Positions 27,982 to 32,005 of a stretch of DNA of 64,000 bases are shown one piece after another. Origin of the DNA: Halothiobacillus sp. Its GTDB lineage: Bacteria; Pseudomonadota; Gammaproteobacteria; Halothiobacillales; Halothiobacillaceae. The notes under the pieces were generated by a model. The model ran no database searches and was not told the origin of the DNA. It was given only the letters and a program-made list of their open reading frames with translations. Where the stretch lies: assembly GCA_024635755.1 (NCBI GenBank), contig JAGXIF010000024.1, forward strand, positions 1 through 64,000, read 5' to 3'. Position numbers and translations under genes: made by a program. Every line of letters starts with the position of its first letter. The stretch's first letter is position 1.

Positions 27982-30206
<2,225 letters not shown>

Positions 30207-30344
30207 GGCCGGCGCAGTCTACCCCGGCCCGGCGGGACAGGCCACCGGTCCCGCACGGCGAGCAACGTCGACCGGCAGACATGCTTTGAGCGGACACGAC
30301 GAAAGCCCCTGACGAAATCAGCGGTGTCATTGGAAAACGGCGGA

Positions 30345-30900
30345 GATTAGAGAGAAGGGAGGGCCTTCCTGGCCTGGAACAGATCCGATCGAGTGGTTCG
30401 AATCCTGGCGCAAGTCCTTGCGCTCAATCGTGCGTCCCGGTCCATGGGCGGGCTTGCGGCGAGTGCTTTTCCATAAGACAAGGCAGTGTCCGTTGCCGGT
30501 CCTGTTGCTTCTTAGCTCGCCTGCGGCCTTCCTGCGGTTTGCTTGTTGTTGCCGGTGATTGCCACCGATCTTTCGATGCGTCCCGCATCGTTCTGATGCC
30601 TTCCCTAGCAGCGCCCGTCCCTGAGCGCTCGGCGATCCTGTGATCGAGCTCGGCGTCCATGCCGATCGCGCCACTGCCTCCGTGGCGGTCCGCAAAAAAC
30701 CTGAACTCAATCCCGAGTGCCGGTTGTTTACGGTGCGCATCCCTTAACCTAGCGCCGTGCGCGTGCCGGTCGAAGCCGACAACCCGATCACTGGCAGATC
30801 CTCTGCCGTTTGCTTCCTGCGTGGACTTCCTTGCCCGCCAGTACGATCCGTCGGCCATCCTGGCCAGTGGGCTTCCTGCCCTTGTGCATCCGAGCACGGG
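30345..30900 (-). ncRNA. Candidate CsrB/RsmZ-type small RNA that sequesters CsrA/RsmA
   Basis: This stretch has no credible protein gene, and its minus strand is saturated with CsrA-binding signals. Between 30361 and 30960 I counted 27 GGA triplets on the minus strand against 4 on the plus strand. Many sit in loops of short perfect hairpins: GGGC-AGGAA-GCCC (30869-30881), GGCC-AGGAT-GGCC (30853-30865), GGCAGA-GGA-TCTGCC (30793-30807), CGATGCG-GGA-CGCATCG (30574-30590), GCGCAAG-GA-CTTGCGC (30408-30423), GGCC-AGGAA-GGCC (30362-30374). This is the architecture of CsrB, CsrC and RsmX/Y/Z RNAs, which titrate the translational repressor CsrA. At roughly 500-550 nucleotides it would be long for the class. 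A T6 run at 30693-30698 could split it into two RNAs. Ends are approximate: no clear -10 was found, and the 3' end may be the last GGCC hairpin followed by a CTCCCTTCTCTCT tract. Confidence 0.72.
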
Positions 30901-30971
30901 ACACATATTGCGCCTTTCGGATCGAGGCGAACAGACGAAAAAGCAAAAGGTTCCGTAGGAAATGTCGCTTT

Positions 30972-30997
30972 GTCTTGTAGGAATTTTCCTACAAGAC
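30972..30997. promoter_or_regulatory. Perfect palindrome resembling a GacA/UvrY upstream activating sequence
   Basis: A 12-base arm (GTCTTGTAGGAA), two-base centre (TT) and its exact complement. The core at 30976-30993, TGTAGG-N6-CCTACA, differs from the GacA consensus TGTAAG-N6-CTTACA by one symmetrical base per half. It lies about 95 bases upstream of the first GGA hairpin. A smaller TTCC-GTA-GGAA repeat is at 30952-30962. It could otherwise be a site for another LuxR/NarL-type regulator. Confidence 0.6.
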
Positions 30998-31025
30998 GGG
31001 GCGGACGCCCCGGACAGAGGAGGGG

Positions 31026-31844
31026 TCAACGGATCGGCTGGGCGGTAACTTCCTCACAGCCGTGGGCAAAAAAGCGGGCAACTGCGGCGAGAAACCCCGG
31101 CGTATCCTCGATATGCGGCCAGTGACGCGCCCGCTCGAGGGTGACGATGCAGCTCTGGGGGAAGTCGCGGGCAATCCGCTCCTCGTCGCCGGGCTCGATA
31201 TAGGCCGATTGCGCGCCGCGCACGAACAGCGCCGGCCCCAGGTAGAAGCCCGCCAGTGACGGCATGTCGGAGGTCTGCTCGTAGGCCGCCTTGAGCACGG
31301 GCAGATTGAACCGCCAGCGCCACTTGCCACCACTCCGCTCGAGGTTGGCGGCCAGAAACGCGCGCACCTCGGGTTCGAACACGTGGGCCGCCATCTGCTG
31401 ACGGGCATGGTCGCGCGATTCGAGCGTGTCCAGATCGACCGCATCCAGCGCGGCGAACACGTCCTGGTGCCAGGGCGGATACCATTTCGGCGCGATATCC
31501 ACGACCACCAGCCGCGCCACCCGCTCGGGGTAACGATCGGCCAGCACCATACCCAGTTTCCCGCCCAGGGAATGACCGATCAAATGCGCGCGCTCGATAC
31601 CGAGGCGATCCATCAGCGCGAGGACGTCGTCGGCCATCGCCTCGTAGCTCAACTCGCAGGCGTGCGGCGATCGGCCGTGATTGCGCAGATCCACATTGAT
31701 CACCCGGTAGTTCGCGCTCAACGACTGGGCAATGCCGCGCCAGTTCGAGAGCGAGCCGAACAGGCCATGCATGATGATCACCGGCAGGCCGCCACCGCGC
31801 TCCTCATAGTGCAGGTCAACCGCCGCGTTTTCGTTCGTCGTCAT
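31026..31844 (-). CDS. Alpha/beta hydrolase (YbfF-like esterase)
   Basis: 272 residues from ATG 31844 (MTTNENAAVDLHYEERGGG); 23 further in-frame codons upstream look non-coding. Alpha/beta fold: oxyanion motif IIMHGLFGSLSNW (about 23-35), nucleophile elbow GHSLGG with S92, acid and histidine near the C-terminus (RARHWPHIEDTPGF). The pattern DLRNHGRSPH is typical of the acyl-CoA/ester hydrolase YbfF group. No signal peptide. It is immediately upstream of the GGA-rich RNA region on the same strand. The substrate cannot be predicted. Confidence 0.85.
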   Translation of the reverse strand: MTTNENAAVDLHYEERGGGLPVIIMHGLFGSLSNWRGIAQSLSANYRVINVDLRNHGRSPHACELSYEAMADDVLALMDRLGIERAHLIGHSLGGKLGMVLADRYPERVARLVVVDIAPKWYPPWHQDVFAALDAVDLDTLESRDHARQQMAAHVFEPEVRAFLAANLERSGGKWRWRFNLPVLKAAYEQTSDMPSLAGFYLGPALFVRGAQSAYIEPGDEERIARDFPQSCIVTLERARHWPHIEDTPGFLAAVARFFAHGCEEVTAQPIR

Positions 31845-32005
31845 GTCAAAGGATTCCGTTGGAATGGGGCCGGTCGCCGGTCGGTGAGACGGGCGGGCCG
31901 CGAGTCTGGTCATGAGATACTACCAAACTGCGCATCCCCCGGCCGAGATCGAGCCGCGCCGCCACGACCCACTAGCCCCGCTCTCAAGCATCACAAGGTG
32001 CCTGC

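Follow-up and report, generated by a model that had tools for sequence, protein, structure and literature searches.

The regulatory RNAs CsrB of Escherichia coli and RsmY and RsmZ of Pseudomonas are intergenic, carry GGA motifs on many short hairpins and are preceded by a GacA-type box. In the portions of the published accounts drawn on here, this box is given as TGTAAG-N6-CTTACA (PMC4682653, PMC4950607, PMC8523701) and GacA sites are centred at -75 and -196 (PMC4950607), while the repeat of E. coli csrC reads TGTGAGACATTGCCGATA and is accompanied by an extra TGTAAG half-site, located 16 bp from the inverted repeat and upstream of it (PMC4682653). Among the open-licence papers listed for the GacA box and its phylogeny, for comEA with GacA homologues and for regulation in Halothiobacillus, Guyparkeria and related taxa, we found none on the site or RNA described below.

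A locus sharing the traits of these RNA genes lies in the window (the whole stretch of 64,000 nucleotides that was analysed), contig C36 of a sulfur-oxidising Guyparkeria. In its genomic position it differs from csrB, rsmY and rsmZ, since the RNA is placed between queA and an alpha/beta hydrolase gene, both on the minus strand. The locus comprises the following features:

31026-31913, minus strand: alpha/beta hydrolase gene (Pfam Abhydrolase_1), ending 28 bp before the palindrome
30972-30997, no strand assigned: perfect palindrome GTCTTGTAGGAATTTTCCTACAAGAC of 26 bases, conserved in its inner 18 bp only
30976-30993, minus strand: 18-bp GacA-type box TGTAGGAAAATTCCTACA, a single genomic copy, identical in 10/10 Guyparkeria loci
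30954-30959, minus strand: third half-site CCTACG, lying 16 bp past the core of the palindrome, 6/6 columns invariant in 10 genomes
30905-30910, minus strand: predicted -10 box CAATAT, following the third half-site at a distance of 43 bp
30300-30898, minus strand: putative CsrB-like non-coding RNA of about 600 nt, both ends predicted, with GGA hairpins and compensatory changes
30300-30327, minus strand: possible 3' end region, a weak hairpin in this genome and, in the alignment of the relatives, a hairpin followed by a T-run
29124-30206, minus strand: queA (Pfam Queuosine_synth), downstream of the RNA

The initial annotation had described a perfect 26-base symmetry around TT, a GacA-like core deviating from the classical box by one symmetrical base per half, and a position directly upstream of a GGA-rich RNA, and all three statements hold. 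The sequence gtcttgtaggaattttcctacaagac consists of two perfect 12-base arms flanking TT (equivalently, 11-base arms flanking 4 bases); the deviation concerns the fifth base of either half, which is G instead of A; and the RNA is on the minus strand, so that upstream means higher coordinates. Like the GacA/UvrY box, the element is an 18-bp inverted repeat with TGTAAG/CTTACA-like halves and a 6-bp centre, placed upstream of the promoter of a GGA-rich RNA. It does not reach the exact consensus, matching TGTAAG/CTTACA at 10 of the 12 half-site bases, which we regard as acceptable because the proven site of E. coli csrC is itself inexact in the portion of the report cited (PMC4682653).

The annotation had also named a repeat family as a possibility to be checked. 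An exact search for TGTAGG-N6-CCTACA returned one match in the window and the same single copy in the whole 2.23-Mb assembly (51 contigs, 87.9% complete), which rules out a dispersed repeat; with up to 2 mismatches the window contained 2 matches against 0.66 expected. A plasmid-borne element was likewise discarded, as no plasmid match was found. In the relatives search, which covered 57 genomes including this one, TGTAGG-N6-CCTACA was present in 16, among them 10 of the 11 Guyparkeria genomes; the sole Guyparkeria genome lacking it (G004) is an assembly that is 64% complete. Site and RNA were kept together in these 10/11 genomes, in line with the earlier proposition that they support each other. 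All 18 columns of the core were invariant in 10/10 Guyparkeria loci, whereas none of the 30 columns just upstream was. The outer 4 bases of each palindrome arm showed no conservation among these loci, so that the element proper measures 18 bp and its extension to 26 bases is a local addition.

Conservation extended into the promoter. Without any alignment gap, the Guyparkeria loci presented the site, 16 bp, CCTACG, 43 bp and CATCAT or CAATAT (10/10). A search with the RNA region of one genome (G022) of a sister genus within the same family, Halothiobacillaceae (g4), recovered a counterpart RNA in 10/10 genomes of that genus, each with the 18-bp site, 16 bp, CTGACG or CCGACG, 43 bp and CATNAT. 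Hence the spacing was identical in 20/20 promoters (10 Guyparkeria and 10 sister-genus), as were the second base (A) and the sixth (T) of the -10 hexamer, and the box stood upstream of a predicted Csr/Rsm sRNA promoter in 20/20 aligned loci, as a GacA/UvrY site should. The centre of the inverted repeat falls near -86, inside the published range of GacA sites. A consensus promoter scan of the window found no sigma-70 site at the csr-type promoter, as expected if its -35 element is weak. Compared with E. coli csrC, for which the cited portion of the report places the additional half-site upstream of the repeat (PMC4682653), the third half-site of Guyparkeria is located towards the promoter, the distance being 16 bp in both. 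The fixed geometry of three half-sites was not seen in most of the other lineages compared. CCGAC- or CTGAC-like motifs occurred about 16 bp past the box in other families (L034, L089, L298, L316 and others); at 5 of 19 sites they were at an offset of 15-17, with at most 2 at any other offset.

The boxes of the sister genus vary at these equivalent promoters. Besides a classical TGTAAG-N6-CTTACA box (TGTAAGAAAATTCTTACA, G022) and a TGTAAG/CCTACA hybrid (TGTAAGAAAATTCCTACA, G024), we found TGTAGG/CCTACA (G013, G017, G023), CGTAGG/CCTACA (G025, G021, G026), CGTAGG/CTTACA (G019) and AGTAGG/CCTACA (G015). The GacA recognition helices of the genus are identical (KTVSTYKVR, 10/10), and therefore one protein type accompanies A as well as G at this fifth position. 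This exchange with the classical box at the same promoter provides, on comparative grounds, the strongest support for reading the element as a GacA-type site, and the initial annotation, which had proposed that reading, is borne out by it.

The RNA itself is the most GGA-rich part of the window: minus-strand GGA peaked there at 26 per 600 nt, the window maximum, with a window mean of 8.1. Within the 700 nt after the site, 26-33 GGA were counted in 10/10 Guyparkeria genomes, and 6-13 in the three other combinations of strand and direction. The stretches analysed in the 10 genomes measured 605-646 nt and contained 24-33 GGA, and are thus longer than E. coli CsrB with its 369 nt and 22 GGA by the same count. 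As is characteristic of CsrB/RsmZ-type sRNAs, many GGA of this intergenic RNA map to predicted hairpin loops, namely 10-15 in each of the 10 RNAs against shuffle means of 1.8-2.7 (maximum 7); for this genome (stretch 30300-30904), 10 of 26 GGA were in loops against a shuffle mean of 1.9. A consensus fold with 17 local helices had 98.0% of its cells paired and compensatory changes in 11 of 81 pairs, compared with 28-38% pairing and 0-2 compensatory changes when the partners were slid, a test biased in favour of the fold by deriving it from the same alignment as that scored. The folding energy of this genome's copy was not unusual (z -0.7), and ranged from z -1.1 to -4.3 in nine relatives. Terminator scans of the window and of L018 listed no terminator at 30300-30327.

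A coding interpretation was rejected: a 201-aa ORF with a TTG start (30424-31029, minus strand) overlaps the RNA, and because indels of 1 to about 25 nt interrupt it in the alignment of the relatives, we took it as non-coding. Rfam returned no match above threshold in the window, the best sub-threshold match of the RNA being PrrB_RsmZ (16.7 bits versus 44, E=0.22). Since the gathering scores of CsrB, CsrC, RsmX, RsmY and RsmZ were not reached, the RNA does not belong to these sequence families. The RNA would be an unusually long, previously uncatalogued one that sequesters CsrA, and the palindrome is very probably where the master regulator GacA docks.

The GacA reading implies that the cognate regulators are encoded in the genome, and csrA as well as a gacA homologue were found, as the initial annotation would have it. 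CsrA, the mark of a Gac/Csr system, matched PF02599 with 90.8 bits and exceeded the cut-off of the NCBIfam CsrA model; its gene follows lysC, which in turn follows alaS (both names are readings of the ORFs). The LuxR-type HTH domain PF00196 had one match in the genome, a receiver-HTH protein encoded directly before uvrC, just as E. coli uvrY adjoins uvrC. Its best NCBIfam model was UvrY/SirA/GacA with 183.6 bits, below the cut-off of 280 bits. Given the incompleteness of the assembly, a second LuxR-type protein could be missing from it. The best model for a 782-aa ORF with REC and Hpt domains (L342:2574-4922, contig C43) was BarA, at 93.5 bits versus a cut-off of 890; neither HisKA nor HATPase was found in this protein, which is possibly a diverged GacS.

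At E<=1e-30, GacA matches were obtained in 22 of 27 family genomes. Five genomes of the genus g3 (G012, G014, G016, G018, G020; 92-100% complete) had neither a GacA match at this threshold nor a TGTARG-N6-CYTACA site, an apparent loss of the Gac regulator in that genus. This co-absence is weak evidence by itself because some GacA-bearing genomes of the sister genus also miss the pattern, at its first base.

Because site, RNA and geometry are conserved, the sister genus exchanges the box for the classical one, and the genome has both csrA and, adjoining uvrC, a gacA homologue, the best reading of the locus is GacA control of a CsrB-type RNA; the GGA hairpins recovered by the same genome comparison are consistent with it. 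We put at roughly 0.88 the probability that the palindrome serves a CsrB/RsmZ-type RNA gene as its upstream activating site, to which GacA would bind to activate an RNA that titrates CsrA. The genome yielded a single LuxR-type DNA-binding protein, GacA, which in its phosphorylated form would bind the 18-bp inverted repeat, probably helped by the third half-site 16 bp further on. From the site and the half-site it would contact RNA polymerase at a promoter whose -35 element is weak and whose -10 element is conserved. The resulting RNA of about 600 nt would display many GGA motifs on hairpin loops, titrate CsrA and so relieve the control of target mRNAs by CsrA. In substance, the initial annotation was correct: the element has the properties of a GacA box, in a TGTAGG variant, belonging to a CsrB-like RNA that is long and uncatalogued.

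Three other explanations were weighed against GacA control. A regulator other than GacA could bind the site, in which case the RNA may nonetheless act as a sponge for CsrA. This would account for TGTAGGAAAATTCCTACA being present, among the matches listed, in many genomes of Lysobacterales and other groups where no GGA-rich RNA adjoins it, but it is unlikely given that no further LuxR-type HTH protein was found in the genome and that the classical GacA box takes the place of the site in the sister genus. Alternatively, the palindrome may be an RNA hairpin or terminator of the alpha/beta hydrolase gene, which is on the same strand as the RNA and has its stop codon only 28 bp away, the perfect 12-base arms in this genome being compatible with a stem. 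However, neither side of 30972-30997 has the T-run of an intrinsic terminator, the terminator scan listed none at the palindrome, conservation is seen in the unpaired centre but not in the outer stem pairs, and the TGTAAG/CCTACA hybrid of G024 breaks a stem pair, so that we consider this explanation very improbable.

That the palindrome arose by chance or belongs to a dispersed repeat is barely credible. Taken alone its improbability is only mild: it is the one palindrome with arms >=12 and a loop <=4 in the window, and as Markov-1 resamples contained 0.12 on average and at most 2 (60 resamples), a single one is not extraordinary. Yet it has one genomic copy, and a chance origin of the site is ruled out because its core is conserved in 10 genomes amid flanks that are not.

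The initial annotation had further suggested that the changed base marks a lineage-specific motif. This did not hold, since many other families of Gammaproteobacteria have TGTAGG and mixed boxes, several of which precede GGA-rich RNAs. A scan for exact TGTAGGAAAATTCCTACA in one genome per bacterial and archaeal species yielded at least 114 stretches, 80 of which were among the matches listed; most of those outside Guyparkeria had, among the matches listed, ordinary GGA counts and no GGA-rich flank. Many Lysobacterales genomes (L046-L125) carry it, mostly without a GGA-rich flank among the matches listed. Short GGA-rich stretches followed both copies of the site in the Solemya velum symbiont and the site in three gammaproteobacterial MAGs, one of them from Porticoccaceae, and on account of such cases we rejected a lineage-private motif. 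In this gill symbiont the two RNA-like stretches (L087:894 and L087:2023), both GGA-rich, are about 1.1 kb apart, each behind an identical TGTAGG box. A sample of the class from different families, this genome included, contained TGTARG-N6-CYTACA in 35 of 104 genomes, and Csr-like RNAs, with flanks read by eye, followed TGTAGG, mixed and TGTAAG boxes alike. Only 8 of the 55 class-wide sites reached a 250-nt GGA count that is attained by <=3.4% of random positions, and many of the 55 are therefore probably chance occurrences or serve other functions.

The base at the fifth position was compared with the GacA recognition helix, in which the residue after KT[VI] aligns with Lys188 of NarL, which contacts DNA bases. 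Of the 66 class genomes matching the GacA model, 41 were read (the best 30 loci and 11 more with sites); the residue was Asn in 14, Ser in 21 and Gly or Thr in 3, with G072, G133 and G141 set aside as probably not GacA orthologues. In Asn genomes with sites (9 genomes, 11 sites) the fifth half-site base was A in 20 cases and G in 2, and no TGTAGG/CCTACA site was present; in their Ser counterparts (18 genomes, 33 sites) it was A in 22 cases and G in 44, and such a site was present in 10 of the 18. An excluded class of 7 genomes and 11 sites (15 A, 7 G) comprised, among others, G072, G133, G141 and the unmatched G121. The association of Ser or Asn with the fifth base gave Fisher P values of 2.8e-6 for half-sites and 0.009 for genomes and 0.0002 in a GC-stratified permutation, but these small values overstate independence, because a minimum of 2 Asn/Ser changes suffices on the GacA tree, which is weakly resolved and was scored without G013 (Ser). 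As judged from these genomes, TGTAGG boxes appear to accompany Ser and not Asn GacA across the Gammaproteobacteria, a strong pattern with few independent changes.

Further sites in Guyparkeria precede genes for comEA-like helix-hairpin-helix proteins, which matched Pfam HHH_3 and exceeded the NCBIfam cut-off for the ComEA repeat region, the full comEA model remaining under its cut-off. In 12 of the 15 Guyparkeria matches, three half-sites with <=2 mismatches were located at -110 to -120. Degenerate versions were present in this genome and in G008 (4 and 5 mismatches), and the G004 gene had no three-half-site element. For comparison, 3 of 1500 stretches of 250 bp drawn at random from the window scored <=4 mismatches, at least one of them being the csr site itself. 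No such site preceded the comEA genes of other genera of the family (11 matches), and in outside records with the 18-mer before comEA (L058, L081) the third half-site differs. Two comEA-like paralogues in Guyparkeria (L206-L212 and L227-L231; in this genome L222, contig C35) share the csr promoter geometry. All 14 aligned comEA-like promoters had a TANNNT hexamer exactly 43 bp past the third half-site; since this is the spacing of the csr promoters, we infer one activator acting in one geometry. Such a layout suggests that DNA uptake is controlled directly by the Gac system.

Two leads are new, a wider rule for the box and the promoters of the comEA-like genes. We tentatively combine them in a model that we hold to be slightly less probable than an even bet: GacA with Asn (the UvrY type) would need TGTAAG, GacA with Ser would read TGTAGG as well as TGTAAG, and in Guyparkeria the Ser-type GacA, at a rigid promoter with three half-sites, would serve the Csr RNA and both comEA-like genes, adding direct control of DNA uptake to that exerted through CsrA. 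If TGTARG-N6-CYTACA is the wider rule, box searches may have missed Csr RNAs in many sulfur-oxidising and other lesser-studied Gammaproteobacteria, and a single helix residue would be a testable specificity switch. And if comEA is indeed a second direct target, the Gac response regulator would be wired directly to horizontal gene transfer.
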